53,149 bases of DNA, from NCBI GenBank assembly GCA_903929765.1, contig CAIYVX010000007.1, positions 1-53,149 of the forward strand, written 5' to 3'. A model generated the notes under the pieces. It was not told the DNA's origin. It did not search any database and was given only the letters and a program-made list of their open reading frames with translations. The DNA is from an uncultured Planctomycetia bacterium. GTDB taxonomy: Bacteria; Planctomycetota; Phycisphaerae; FEN-1346; JAACEH01. Below are positions 21,891 to 33,979 of the stretch, one piece after another; the stretch's first letter is position 1, and each line of letters begins with the position of its first letter. The position numbers and the translations under genes were made by a program.

Positions 21891-22149
21891 CGGGTGCCAC
21901 ACTTTGAAGCCCCGGCTTTGCCGGGGCCAAAGTGTGTTCTTCTTCTTCTTCTTTTTCTTTTTCTTCTTTTGAAGCCCCCAGCACTGCTGGGGGACGCTGT
22001 TTCTTCTTCTTTTTCTTTTTCTGCTTCACCCCTCTCCCTTGAGGGGAGAGGGTAGGGTGAGGGTGCTGCTGTTTCTTTTGTTGTTGCTGTTCCTGAAGCC
22101 TGAGGTCTAAAGCCCGAAGCCTTTCTTTTAACTTTTTACCTTTTACTTT
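21891..22149. repeat. Composite repeat cluster between sigma and anti-sigma genes
   Basis: Four modules in series, joined by TTCTTCTTTTTCTTT-type linkers: family A palindrome (21891-21939), family B AGCCCCCAGCACTGCTGGGG (21971-21999), family C CCCCTCTCCC...GAGGGG (22026-22064), and a CTGAAGCCTGAGGTCTAAAGC piece (22093-22121), ending in four TTTTACC-like units (to 22160) that run into the 3' end of the sigma gene. No gene is present here. Confidence 0.9.
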
Positions 22150-22770
22150 TTACCTTTTACCTTCCTCTTCGTCCTTCTCTCCCGTCAGCACCGCCTGCAT
22201 CTTCCTCCGAGCATAAAAAATCCGACTCATCACCGTTCCGTTGCTGATGTTCAGCACCTCGGCGATCTCGCGGTAACTCAACTCTCCGGCGGCGAACAGC
22301 ACAAACGCCGTCCGATTCTCCTCCGCAATCGCCTCCAGCGCCGTCTCCAGCCGGGCCTTCACATCCTCTGCCGCACCGTCCGACGAACCCGCTAGCCTCA
22401 CCCCCCGCGAGCGCCGCACATCCAGCGCCCGATTCGTCACCACTCGGAAAAACCAGGTCTTGAATCCCGCCCCGCCGCGAAACGTCCGCAAAGCCCGAAA
22501 CGCCTTGCCGAACGCATCCTGAACCACGTCCAGCGCCTCCTCGCGCCGCCCCAGAAACCGATACGCGATCTGGTAAGCCGGCCCGCGATATTTCTCAAAC
22601 AGCCGGGCAAACGCTTCTCTGTCCCCCTCCTGCGCCGCCGCCACGAGCCGCGCATCCTCCGAGGCGACTTCGCCCACGACGCGCGACAACTCGTCCTCCT
22701 CGCGCCGGGCCGCCGCCCGTTTCGCCGCCGACTCCGCCCCTGACTCGTTTTCCGCTTTTTCCGTTACCAT
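22150..22770 (-). CDS. ECF-family RNA polymerase sigma factor
   Basis: 206 residues from the ATG at 22770. Region 2 is GDREAFARLFEKYRGPAYQIAYRFLGRREEALDVVQDAFGKAFRALRTF with the -10 binding helix FKTWFFRVVTNRALDVRR; region 4 is LETALEAIAEENRTAFVLFAAGELSYREIAEVLNISNGTVMSRIFYARRKM. There is no region 1 or 3, so it is an extracytoplasmic-function sigma factor. A GGAGG lies 15 nt from the chosen start; a TTG at 22809 is an alternative. The C-terminal codons GKR and the stop come from a GGTAAAA repeat tract. The downstream anti-sigma gene is its likely partner. Confidence 0.93.
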   Translation of the reverse strand: MVTEKAENESGAESAAKRAAARREEDELSRVVGEVASEDARLVAAAQEGDREAFARLFEKYRGPAYQIAYRFLGRREEALDVVQDAFGKAFRALRTFRGGAGFKTWFFRVVTNRALDVRRSRGVRLAGSSDGAAEDVKARLETALEAIAEENRTAFVLFAAGELSYREIAEVLNISNGTVMSRIFYARRKMQAVLTGEKDEEEGKR

Positions 22771-22915
22771 TCTTTTCGACGGCTCCCTCCGCTGCCCGTA
22801 TTCACTCAATTATTTTCGCGCCCGACCACAAACCGCCCACGGTCCGCGCCGGAAGCCGCTCCGGGGAACGATTGTACCACCTGCCCTGCCCTACTTCAAC
22901 CGTCGCTGCCCCAGA

Positions 22916-22976
22916 GCGTAGGTCGGGTCAACAGACCCGACATCTTAAAGGTGTAGGGTGCGTGCTTGCACGCACC
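22916..22976. repeat. Two small palindromes (repeat family F)
   Basis: GTAGGTCGGGTCAACAGACC-CGAC (hairpin GGTCGGGTC/GACCCGAC) and GTAGGGTGCGTGCTTGCACG-CACC (hairpin GGTGCGTG/CACGCACC), both beginning GTAGG. They lie between the sigma gene and the nuclease gene. Confidence 0.75.
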
Positions 22977-23019
22977 AATCCGCTTTGTCCCGCGCCGGCT
23001 CAAACACCCACCCTAAAGC

Positions 23020-24012
23020 TCAGACTTGCATCTCCCGCAGGCCCTCTTCGTTTGCTTCATAAACTTTCAGCCCCCCGAGCACACCGTCCCAGTCCTTGTC
23101 AACGAGGCGGCGGACGATGTCAAAGCTCTCCCAAACGCTGCCCTTAAAGCGTGGATTGCGAACGATGATAACCGGGATAAACCGAAGGTCCGCTTTCGAT
23201 TCTGGCGGCTGGATATGCTCGGGTAGAAGACCGAGCCGCTGTTTTTGTAGGACAAGTTCTCGCAAGCCCGACAGGGCCTCGTCGGGTTGATCGGCCGCAA
23301 ACCTACGCCAGATGGTGGTGTAGGCAGCTACCTGTCGCGGGCTTAGATACACGCCGCTCGTAGAATGACCATCCTTGACTTCCGCAACGCCAAATTCCCG
23401 GTCTTTGCCGTTCCAGAGCAGAAAGTCCAGCCCGTCGCCGAAAGCCTTCTTTGCGAGACTGGTCCCAAACTTTTTCGGATCCAAAGCCATCAATTTTCTG
23501 CCCAGTTCGATAGCTCGACTGCGAATTGGATCCCAGACTTTCTCTTTTTGCCCATCGTCATAAGCGATTCCTATCTCACGGTCCACCACCGTCCACCTGT
23601 CGCCGGATTGACCATGCACACCGAAGCGCGACGCGAGTCGGGCCTGGCAATGGCCTTCCTTCTCGTAATGGTGCTTATTGACCACGACGTTATCCAGATA
23701 ACGTTGAACATCACCGGCCAACTTGGCGTACTCATCTGGAGAGTACCGTTCAGCTACCCCATGTTCTTGGAGTCGATAGAACTTGTCCGCAGAAACCTTC
23801 AGTTGTAATGACCGCTTCATGAGCTTCACCGTTAGCAGTCGCGTCAGTCCCAGGTAAAGCATTACCTCGTTTCTTGAACGCAACTGGAGGTCCAGTGGCA
23901 GTCCGGTGTCCTTGAAGGTTGACCGGCAAGCCTTGTCCACCAAGAAGCGGAGTGGCTTACCGTGTGAGAGAAGTCCCTCATAGGAACTGTCGATACATCG
24001 GTTGAACTGCAT
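23020..24012 (-). CDS. PD-(D/E)XK-like nuclease protein paired with a beta-CASP hydrolase
   Basis: 330 residues, not recognised as a named family. The stretch GDGLDFLLWNGKDREFGVAEVKDGHSTSG has the spacing of a PD-(D/E)XK nuclease core: Asp196 at the end of one strand and Glu211-x-Lys213 on the next, followed by a helix with Gln (SPRQVAAY). A glutamate (Glu49, SRNEVMLYLG) could be the first acidic residue. The N-terminal ~130 residues are basic. The C-terminal part (FIPVIIVRNPRFKGSVWESFDIV) looks like a strand-helix cap. The ATG at 24012 sits 6 nt behind AAGGAGG and only 15 nt after the beta-CASP gene, so the two form one operon. A DNA or RNA processing or defence role is inference. Confidence 0.75.
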   Translation of the reverse strand: MQFNRCIDSSYEGLLSHGKPLRFLVDKACRSTFKDTGLPLDLQLRSRNEVMLYLGLTRLLTVKLMKRSLQLKVSADKFYRLQEHGVAERYSPDEYAKLAGDVQRYLDNVVVNKHHYEKEGHCQARLASRFGVHGQSGDRWTVVDREIGIAYDDGQKEKVWDPIRSRAIELGRKLMALDPKKFGTSLAKKAFGDGLDFLLWNGKDREFGVAEVKDGHSTSGVYLSPRQVAAYTTIWRRFAADQPDEALSGLRELVLQKQRLGLLPEHIQPPESKADLRFIPVIIVRNPRFKGSVWESFDIVRRLVDKDWDGVLGGLKVYEANEEGLREMQV

Positions 24013-24027
24013 TCGCAGCCTCCTTGT

Positions 24028-25275
24028 TTATGACGTGACGTTCCACCACTGCCCATCATGTTTCAGACAAACATGCTCGAAGTGCTGTGGGTATGCCTCT
24101 GTGTGGAATGAATGAATCGGCACCAGCATCTTCGGTGCAAGTGCTTTGGCCAGTCGCTGCAAATCGGCGACAGTTGCATGGCCGGAAGTATGGCAGTGGG
24201 TCAGCGGAATGCTGCGGCTTTTGAGCCAGACTAGGAAGGGTTTCTGCTCGTCCCGCCGGAGATAGCCGCCCCAAAGTGAATAAGTGAGGTGCGCGCCTGC
24301 GAGACAGTCGGCCTTTTCCAAGTCCTTGACCATCGACGGGCGAAACAGCATCACGGATTTCGGTGCTTCCGCAGCAAGTTGATTCGGGTAGATTCGTGCG
24401 GCCTTGAATGAGGCGGACCGGTCGAACAATTCCTTGCGGACGATAGTATTTTTCTGGCCCCACGGCAGAAAAACACGGAATTCGGGAAAACCCGGCTGCG
24501 GCAACTTGGGATTGCCGATGGCTCGAAGAACACTCGCGGTGTACATATCGACGATTAACTGTTTGCCAACATGGCGTGCGGCCTTGTAGATGGTGACGAG
24601 CCGGTCGATGTTCTGGCCAGAACACCATACGAGCGAAAGGCCGGGCGTATCCCGGAAAAGATTCTCGAATTGCTTCTCAAGTTCCTCTTCCGTCGGGTAT
24701 TCGTTGTCCCCACCGGTTCGACCGATGGTCGAACCCTCCAGCAACAGCACGTCGATATTTCCTAGCGGCCGCGCCACCATCCGCTCGAACAACTTGCCCT
24801 TGCGCCCGTGGGCGCGAAGGTCGCCGGAATAAAATAGCCGCTGCCCGTCCGCCTCCACCAACACGGCGTAGGCGTCGTAGGCGGAATGATCCATGAGAAA
24901 TGGCGTGACCTTGAACGGCCCCAACTCTATTGGCGTGCGGTCCTTCAGGTGAACCACTTTGTCGAACCGCACCTCTCCGGGGACAAACACGCTGGCGGCC
25001 ATAAGAATCTTGTGGGCTTCCGGCCCGATGAGAATCGGCGTACCGGAGGGCAACTTGTGAGCCAGGCCGTAATGATCCAAATGGGGATGGGAAATTACCA
25101 CGCCGAGAAGGGAGGAGTCTGGTACGGCAAATCCGGCGACCGGCGGCAATGGAACCTCGGCCGGATCACCATCCAGCGGCAGGCCCACATCCAGCACAAT
25201 CCGCCGCCCCTGCGATTCGATTTCCACGCAAGTGCCACCGATTTCGTGAGTGCCACGGTGGATGCAGACTTTCAT
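24028..25275 (-). CDS. Beta-CASP metallo-beta-lactamase nuclease (RNase J/CPSF-like)
   Basis: 415 residues. The MBL motif HPHLDH (His63, His65, Asp67, His68), His130 (LMDHSAYDAY) and Asp152 (YSGDLRAHG) supply the two-metal site. The beta-CASP insert follows, with motif B HTSGHA (362-367) and motif C His388 (VPIHSFHTEAYP). These residues are those of RNA- or DNA-cleaving members such as RNase J, CPSF-73 and Artemis. At 415 residues it lacks the C-terminal domain of RNase J (~550), so it is probably not the housekeeping RNase J. Start ATG at 25275 has GGAG 10 nt upstream. The next gene encodes a PD-(D/E)XK-like protein. Confidence 0.9.
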   Translation of the reverse strand: MKVCIHRGTHEIGGTCVEIESQGRRIVLDVGLPLDGDPAEVPLPPVAGFAVPDSSLLGVVISHPHLDHYGLAHKLPSGTPILIGPEAHKILMAASVFVPGEVRFDKVVHLKDRTPIELGPFKVTPFLMDHSAYDAYAVLVEADGQRLFYSGDLRAHGRKGKLFERMVARPLGNIDVLLLEGSTIGRTGGDNEYPTEEELEKQFENLFRDTPGLSLVWCSGQNIDRLVTIYKAARHVGKQLIVDMYTASVLRAIGNPKLPQPGFPEFRVFLPWGQKNTIVRKELFDRSASFKAARIYPNQLAAEAPKSVMLFRPSMVKDLEKADCLAGAHLTYSLWGGYLRRDEQKPFLVWLKSRSIPLTHCHTSGHATVADLQRLAKALAPKMLVPIHSFHTEAYPQHFEHVCLKHDGQWWNVTS

Positions 25276-25315
25276 CGTGTCTTATCTCCCGTTGCATAAG
25301 CCACGACAACAAAAG

Positions 25316-25417
25316 CACCCCCCAGCAGTGCTGGGGGCTTCAAAAGCAACAGCAACAACAAAAGAAGAAACGGCAACACCCTCACCCTACCCTCTCCCGC
25401 CAATGGAGAGGGGTGAA
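25316..25417. repeat. Composite repeat: family B + linker + family C
   Basis: CACCCCCCAGCAGTGCTGGGG-GGCTTC (25316-25342), then the linker AAAAGCAACAGCAACAACAA-AAGAAGAAA (25342-25370), then ACCCTCACCCTACCCTCTCC-CGCCAATGGAGAGGGGTG (25377-25416). It separates the nuclease cassette from truD. Confidence 0.88.
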
Positions 25418-25428
25418 AAAACAGCCCC

Positions 25429-26703
25429 CTACTCTTCTATCTCTTCATCGACTCCCGCGTCGGGCTCCGCCTCGGCGGCGCCGGATTTCATCAGCTCGTC
25501 GAGGACGACGGTGGCGTAGCAGCCGGACGGGAGGGAGAAGCTGATCCAAAGGTCCTCGGAGACGGCCTCGAGGGCGGGGGATTCCAGGGGAACGCGGAGC
25601 GGCCGGCGGCAACCTTTGAGGTTGTCTTTGCCGCCGCCGCGAAATGCGCCGGAGCCGACGCCGGAGGCGGCTAAAACCGCCTTTTCGATCTCGCCGGGAC
25701 GGCCGGTCGGTTCGGTCATGCGAAAGCCGAAGAGCGGGCCGGTCGGGCTGATTTCCAGCCGGTCGGCGCGCGGCTGGTCCACCGCCAGATCCTCCACGCG
25801 AAAGACGGCCCCGCGATCGTGCAGCCAGGCCAGGTCGCCGGGGAGCAGCAGGCCCAGGTTCGGCAACCGCTGGGCGACCACTTCGTTGAACAGGGCCGAT
25901 TGCCAGGCCGAGACGAAAAACCGTTTCATCTGTCGCGGCAAGGTCTGGCCGGCCCGCGAAAAGTCGCCCTTAGAGCGCAGCAGCGCGTCGAGAACGGCGG
26001 CATGTTCGCGGTGGCCGTGCGGGAGGTTGCGGCGGGCGTCGTGGTACTCTCCGGCGTCGTAGAGCGAGCGGAACTTCCAGGCGGCCGGCGGATCGCTCTG
26101 GCGCGGGTGGCCGAGCAGAAGGTCGCAGAGGCGTTTCCACTCGCCGTTCAAAATGGCGGCGCCCATGAGGTGGGTGTCGCCGCGCAGGCCGAACCGCTGG
26201 TGGCCGAAGATGTTGGGCACGCCGCCCGTGGTGAGGCGATCCATGATCGCCCTGGCCCGGCCTTCGCCGTCGGCCCCGGTGCCGCGAATCAGGATGCGAA
26301 ACGAGTTGCCGCGCAGGTGGCCGATTTTCAGTTTGTTTTTGTGGTGGGAAACCTTGAGTACGCGCCAGCCGTCGCCCTTGAGGTTCTCCAGCTTCGCGGG
26401 GTCGACGTGCTCGATGCTGATCCATTGCCGCGTCTTGGCCCGGGCGTCCTTGAGGCCGGCCACGCCGAATTCCTGGGCCTTGCGACCCAGCGCCGCCGCC
26501 AGGCGGTGAACCAGTTCCATCGTCGGAATGCCGACCTTTTCGACCCAGAGATAGGCGTGCGTGCCCTCGCCGGACGGCTCGTAGGCGGGGAGTTCGGTGA
26601 CTTCAAAGTCAGCCGGATGTTCGCGAATCCGCCCGCCGACGCCGGGCAGATCGGCCGTCACGCGCGGCATGGGGGGCAGCACACAGTCAACATGGTCCGG
26701 CAT
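25429..26703 (-). CDS. truD: tRNA pseudouridine synthase D
   Basis: TruD isomerises U13 of tRNAs to pseudouridine. The 424-residue protein shows RIREHPADFEVTELPAYEPSGEGTHAYLWVEK at the N-terminus, the catalytic GLKDARAKTRQ motif (Asp86), the RGNSFRILIRG segment, GVPNIFGHQRFG and a C-terminal FSLPSGCYATVVLDELMKS. The insertion domain between them is of normal length. ATG at 26703 with AAAGGA 6 nt upstream; a glutamate-rich tail (AEPDAGVDEEIEE) extends past the family end. It stands alone between repeats and a membrane-protein gene. Confidence 0.94.
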   Translation of the reverse strand: MPDHVDCVLPPMPRVTADLPGVGGRIREHPADFEVTELPAYEPSGEGTHAYLWVEKVGIPTMELVHRLAAALGRKAQEFGVAGLKDARAKTRQWISIEHVDPAKLENLKGDGWRVLKVSHHKNKLKIGHLRGNSFRILIRGTGADGEGRARAIMDRLTTGGVPNIFGHQRFGLRGDTHLMGAAILNGEWKRLCDLLLGHPRQSDPPAAWKFRSLYDAGEYHDARRNLPHGHREHAAVLDALLRSKGDFSRAGQTLPRQMKRFFVSAWQSALFNEVVAQRLPNLGLLLPGDLAWLHDRGAVFRVEDLAVDQPRADRLEISPTGPLFGFRMTEPTGRPGEIEKAVLAASGVGSGAFRGGGKDNLKGCRRPLRVPLESPALEAVSEDLWISFSLPSGCYATVVLDELMKSGAAEAEPDAGVDEEIEE

Positions 26704-33923: not shown

Positions 33924-33979
33924 GTGAAGAAACAGCAACACCCTCACCCTACCCACTCCCGTCAAGGGAGAGGGGTGAT
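33924..33979. repeat. Repeat family C with linker
   Basis: GTGAAGAAACAGCAACA linker followed by CCCTCACCCTACCCACTCCC-GTCAAGGGAGAGGGGTGAT, directly upstream of glmS. Confidence 0.82.

Follow-up and report, generated by a model that had tools for sequence, protein, structure and literature searches.

The window analyzed here, by which we mean the whole 53,149-nucleotide stretch of DNA, is a contig (CAIYVX010000007.1, assembly GCA_903929765.1) from an uncultured Planctomycetia bacterium. It carries on its minus strand a compact pair of genes, ∼2.3 kb in size, between an ECF-type sigma factor gene and a gene for a TruD-like tRNA pseudouridine synthase. The features of the locus are as follows.

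22150-22809, minus strand: ECF-type sigma factor gene; conserved chromosomal flank, syntenic in the same-family genome G392
23020-24012, minus strand: P0002, PD-(D/E)XK-like nuclease gene, 330 amino acids, second of the pair and 15 nt downstream of the first; N-terminal beta-rich domain at about residues 39-75, catalytic core at about residues 113-284 (E117, D144, E146, D196, E211, K213)
24013-24027, minus strand: intergenic spacer of 15 nt with an AAGGAGG ribosome-binding site ahead of the P0002 ATG
24028-25275, minus strand: P0001, beta-CASP nuclease gene of the metallo-beta-lactamase fold (MBL), 415 amino acids, first of the pair
25276-25428, minus strand: gap between the pair and the TruD-like gene, with one dispersed-repeat copy inside (25353-25417)
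25429-26703, minus strand: TruD-like tRNA pseudouridine synthase gene; conserved chromosomal flank, syntenic in G392

The two open reading frames, their lengths and their 15-nt spacing had been described in a first-pass annotation made from sequence alone and held on inspection; the minus strand was a detail missing from it. The two proteins belong to unrelated kinds of predicted nuclease, and all catalytic residues of both are intact. Judged only by the sequence, P0001 and P0002 probably share one mRNA and are probably co-translated. No known defence gene lies beside the cassette in the window, where the neighbours are ordinary chromosomal genes.

The cassette had also been described as less GC-rich than its flanks and bounded by dispersed repeats. 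A GC profile confirmed the former: the cassette has a GC content of 56.1% versus 62.4% (z = -3.6) and no other stretch of the window is as low in GC, and third-position GC (GC3) is 0.61 and 0.68 in the pair versus 0.74-0.89 in the neighbouring genes. The latter is literally true but uninformative on where a boundary lies, and we give it no weight. Two 65-nt copies in inverted orientation (22025-22089 and 25353-25417) enclose the cassette together with the sigma factor gene, and another copy lies at 33926-33978. The repeat (50-80 nt, CCTCACCCTACCCTCTCCC core) has 47 matches across the 3.8-Mb genome, and because it is genome-wide we rejected the 65-nt copies as transposon ends or as a cassette boundary.

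In G392 the sigma factor gene, truD and their flanks are syntenic with the window, and ∼7 kb of unrelated genes replace the cassette. The sigma-factor-truD interval is variable in content: it holds the cassette in the window (22809-25429) and three large unrelated genes in the same-family genome (locus L161, 3476-10823).

Conserved residues and predicted folds of the two proteins

P0001 matches the Pfam model Lactamase_B_2 (3.8e-13) and, weakly, RMMBL. An alignment of 19 MBL homologues shows no variation in MBL motifs 1-4 (D29; H63/H65/D67/H68; H130; D152) or in beta-CASP motifs A (E180), B (H362) and C (H388), so the protein meets both sets of motif criteria for a beta-CASP MBL nuclease, and the metal ligands and beta-CASP motifs proposed earlier for the 415-residue protein held. 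Among solved structures EF2904 (2az4) and RNase J come closest, each matched in two stretches. P0001 also matches the NCBIfam RNase J family TIGR00649 (8e-16); the score of 57.5 bits falls below the curated full-length cut-off of 400, and the protein was rejected as RNase J proper. RNA-acting members of the beta-CASP group (RNase J and CPSF-73, for example) have a histidine as motif C, and the DNA-repair members (SNM1/Artemis) have a valine.

P0002 is more elusive, since no Pfam, NCBIfam or PADLOC model matches it. The residues first proposed as its PD-(D/E)XK core (D196 and E211-x-K213) are nevertheless conserved. In an 18-member alignment of the closer P0002 family R45, Y53, E117, D144, E146, E211 and K213 are invariant, and when 35 divergent partners encoded next to MBL genes are compared, only the D196 and E211 columns show no variation. 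The triad criterion, D...(D/E)-x-K, is thus met. Profile comparison (5 + 48 sequences) revealed remote homology between P0002 and the dominant family of MBL partners (hhalign 98.1%, E 1.3e-13, 227 columns), with one sequence, L140, bridging the P0002 family and the other partners; an earlier, smaller comparison (4 + 7 sequences) had given no link between them. Scans of genome contigs and of phages with the single P0002 protein, and a viral scan with the small P0002 family, found nothing, because the family is too divergent for scans of this kind.

The AlphaFold (AF2) model of P0002 is modest (pLDDT 65, pTM 0.69) and consistent with a PD-(D/E)XK core. For L108, a representative of the dominant partner family, the model is much firmer (pLDDT 90, pTM 0.88) and runs from a helix at 113-127 (E114) through strands at 136-145, 150-158 (D153) and 171-179 (E176, K178) to a helix at 190-202 and a strand at 247-253. 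This is the alpha-beta-beta-beta-alpha-beta core with E114, D153, E176 and K178 at the expected elements, and it meets the core-topology criterion at the level of the family. Foldseek searches against the PDB with the partner models, including the one of pLDDT 90, returned nothing significant (best E 0.14-0.16), and a search against BFVD gave no significant match. The upper ranks of the non-significant lists prominently feature restriction enzymes, Shedu and other PD-(D/E)XK nucleases, and the partner set has six weak PDB profile matches, Shedu among them (E 0.57), all of which we take, from our reading of the entries, to be PD-(D/E)XK nucleases. The fold of the partner is a prediction that we consider supported and not proven.

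Recurrence of the pairing and exchange of the partner

MBL relatives were collected from plasmids, viral contigs and planctomycetes, together with 80 GTDB loci. The 109 MBL homologue loci analyzed span at least 11 phyla, one archaeal MAG included, as well as plasmids and viral contigs. When neighbouring genes were clustered, one dominant family (∼323 aa) was found at 48 of these loci, immediately adjacent on the same strand and downstream of the MBL gene in 36 and upstream in 7. At the remaining loci smaller families occupy the same place, nearly all with a hydrophobic-D ... E-x-K pattern. Among the 101 adjacent same-strand ORFs of 180-460 aa, 64 carry this D...E-x-K signature, compared with 17 of the 426 that lie farther away (Fisher 7e-40, without correction for relatedness); the rate in shuffled sequences is 2.3%. 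The gaps between MBL and partner genes are mostly -100 to +60 nt. The genes overlap or abut, and co-translation is therefore likely. In 77 of the 103 tree rows a recurrent partner family lies within two genes of the MBL gene.

The window's own combination appears again in Defluviicoccus (L069), 34 nt apart, and in opposite order, 1 nt apart, in a planctomycete (L137). In a same-class genome (L138) a 58%-identical MBL gene overlaps a partner gene, which we take from its motifs to belong to the dominant family. The nearest MBL relative (L050, 67%) has no motif-bearing neighbour, and a few members of the P0002 family, at L028 and on a Pimelobacter plasmid (beside a RecB-like nuclease), have no adjacent MBL gene.

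Three further observations concern the neighbours themselves. At L028 (1352-3353) the P0002-family gene is preceded by a GIY-YIG-like gene and closely followed by one for a DHH-type phosphoesterase; no strong MBL homologue was found in that genome, and a different hydrolase may conceivably stand in for the MBL there. A small MBL-adjacent protein of unknown family (∼125-160 aa, with a “GIFW...” start and a “PRGR” motif) forms a 12-locus cluster and is seen at L005, L006, L009, L012, L036 and L039. Finally, a peptidyl-arginine/agmatine-deiminase-like or PcfJ-like gene adjoins the MBL gene at L048, L102, L106, L115, L118 and L139, and it is possible that the MBL works with still other partners of these kinds.

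The MBL tree has at least 24 changes of partner family and 9 of gene order, and the phyla are interleaved in it, with 20 phylum changes. Conservation of the residues, pairing and partner exchange are direct observations from sequence. The MBL of the window shares 67% identity with that of a Myxococcota MAG and 64% with that of an actinobacterium, versus 54-58% within its own class. Rhizobium rosettiformans and Pseudochelatococcus carry identical MBLs. The distribution is sporadic (13 of 392 genomes in the phylum, 4 of 101 relatives). Several copies lie on or near mobile elements: a Rhizobium plasmid copy adjoins a restriction-modification locus and a mobF relaxase, a Cereibacter copy sits in a Tn3/TniB-TniQ region, and on the viral contig L042 the pair occupies a cargo position among what we take, from our reading of the translations, to be tail genes. 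We additionally noted that Bradyrhizobium erythrophlei G660 (the genome of L097 and L098) has four MBL matches, two of them with an internal stop codon, which suggests repeated gain and decay of the MBL in this organism.

Taken together, the MBL stays constant while its partners are exchanged, and it has spread by horizontal transfer. The earlier proposal that the module is transferable is supported by its foreign composition, the content of the interval in G392, the interleaving of phyla in the tree, and the plasmid and viral-contig copies. The first-pass annotation had named two outcomes that would refute it, namely a structure prediction without a PD-(D/E)XK core and co-occurrence limited to close relatives. 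Neither occurred, and its interpretation is supported: the core is present in the family model, without a significant match to a solved structure, and the pairing is kept far beyond close relatives.

A putative defence module and its rivals

The first-pass annotation had left open whether the module served defence or RNA/DNA processing. The neighbourhoods favor defence without showing it. A set of 129 neighbours of MBL genes matched 210 PADLOC families, versus 61 for 129 control genes taken from 20 MBL-bearing genomes; many of the control families came from one type I specificity protein. The control is imperfect, since the threshold on amino-acid composition by which genes were filtered was stricter for the neighbours than for the control; we therefore regard the enrichment as support for a defence context, and not as decisive. 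The families matched among neighbours include WYL, type I/II methylases, ZacA/ZacB, PD-Lambda-1, BrxH, DrmD and candidate PDC families, and a Prevotella plasmid locus has two DUF262 genes and a WYL regulator nearby. Proximity to known defence genes, a check proposed at the outset, is a feature of MBL loci elsewhere and not of the window cassette.

We hypothesize that the pair is a horizontally mobile two-gene nuclease module whose most likely role is anti-phage or anti-mobile-element activity. The balance of evidence tips modestly towards this reading, in which the function is inferred and rests on no experiment. According to our hypothesis the PD-(D/E)XK partner, with its variable N-terminal domain, would be the variable recognition or DNA-cutting component, and the beta-CASP protein would be the shared degrading enzyme, its motif C histidine being that of RNA-acting enzymes. 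Once the partner is engaged, the beta-CASP enzyme would destroy transcripts or the processed nucleic acid, and the invader or the infected cell would be stopped. Substrate, division of labour and defensive role are all inferences here. A bolder version holds that these loci represent a widespread, undescribed class of immune module, in which a constant beta-CASP nuclease is combined with interchangeable PD-(D/E)XK recognition or cutting proteins and which plasmids and phages carry from phylum to phylum; we would not wager on this version in either direction.

Of the rival explanations, the most serious is a mobile accessory operon for DNA repair or RNA processing, whose enzymes would trim RNA or the ends of DNA in the service of the host or of the element, without conferring immunity. 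RNase J, CPSF-73 and Artemis are known to mature RNA or open DNA ends, and repair-like neighbours do occur (Ku in 2 of 129, RadC beside L050, UvrD beside L006, and the RecB-like nuclease at the locus of the Pimelobacter P0002 homologue). Housekeeping repair, however, fits poorly with a sporadic distribution, with partner exchanges on this scale and with defence-rich neighbourhoods, and we consider this rival unlikely. Less likely still is a module for counter-defence or competition between elements, pairing an Apyc1-like MBL phosphodiesterase directed against immune signals with a nuclease directed against rivals. In its favor are the copies on plasmids and viral contigs, once between tail genes, and the known cleavage of cyclic nucleotides by phage enzymes of the MBL fold (PMC9117128). 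Against it, the match to a cyclic-nucleotide phosphodiesterase model is very weak (0.017), the intact beta-CASP motifs A, B and C suggest nucleic-acid cleavage, and most copies lie on bacterial contigs, many of them from isolates.

If the genes formed a toxin-antitoxin or addiction-like pair, with one toxic nuclease restrained by the other protein, this would account for two small overlapping or abutting genes that travel on mobile elements in either order, and small regulators are indeed recurrent neighbours (WYL at 21 loci, a divergent HTH gene at 6). Yet both proteins have complete catalytic sites, neither resembles a small antitoxin, and partners of quite different families replace each other; this explanation, too, we hold to be very improbable. 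Should the favored reading, a mobile defence module, prove correct, the loci would constitute a mobile nuclease system, so far uncatalogued, that occurs in many phyla, and a natural experiment in which one conserved nuclease has had its partner exchanged at least two dozen times. At its small size the pair is directly testable in laboratory strains.

Relation to known systems

The pair fits none of the named systems against which it was compared (RNase J, type VII Cas14 and the PADLOC systems), and the earlier remark that no named system was recognized in it held against the Pfam, NCBIfam and PADLOC models and the literature searched. PADLOC 2.0.0 system models matched neither P0001, P0002 nor the 19 MBLs; a few partners gave weak PDC-S11/HEC-02B matches. 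We found no description of the pair in the open-access literature, and in CRISPR papers that mention both “XK nuclease” and beta-CASP the relevant passages do not contain it. Subscription papers and bioRxiv preprints were mostly outside this search, and a prior description remains possible.

With enzymes of the RNase J/CPSF-73 type (RNase J, EF2904 2az4, TTHA0252) P0001 shares the MBL and beta-CASP architecture, the catalytic motifs and the motif C histidine. At 415 aa it lacks the C-terminal region of RNase J, and it differs further in its mobility, its sporadic distribution and its pairing with a PD-(D/E)XK-like gene. Shedu SduA is the top, non-significant, structural match of the P0002 model, but the partner carries an N-terminal domain of its own and in most cases sits beside an MBL, and no PADLOC Shedu match was obtained for P0002 or listed for the partner set.

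Closest by analogy are the MBL nuclease-protease pairs and Cas14. MBL nucleases coupled to a second enzyme have been acquired repeatedly by different defence systems, as described for Avs1, HamM and canu (PMC12799240); those MBLs resemble DNA-uptake nucleases and are paired with trypsin-like or caspase-family proteases (PMC12799240). The window pair, unlike these, joins a beta-CASP enzyme to a PD-(D/E)XK-like protein, and its 19 MBLs are without a PADLOC match. A beta-CASP RNase effector in prokaryotic immunity is known from Cas14 of type VII CRISPR (PMC10910872, PMC12669027). Membership of that system was rejected for P0001 (21.5 bits versus a cut-off of 800, with TruD and a sigma factor as neighbours). 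Unlike Cas14, P0001 lacks the Cas10-like C-terminal domain, and neither Cas5 nor Cas7 forms part of the pair. If our interpretation is correct, beta-CASP enzymes would have a second role in prokaryotic immunity, in addition to the one in type VII CRISPR.
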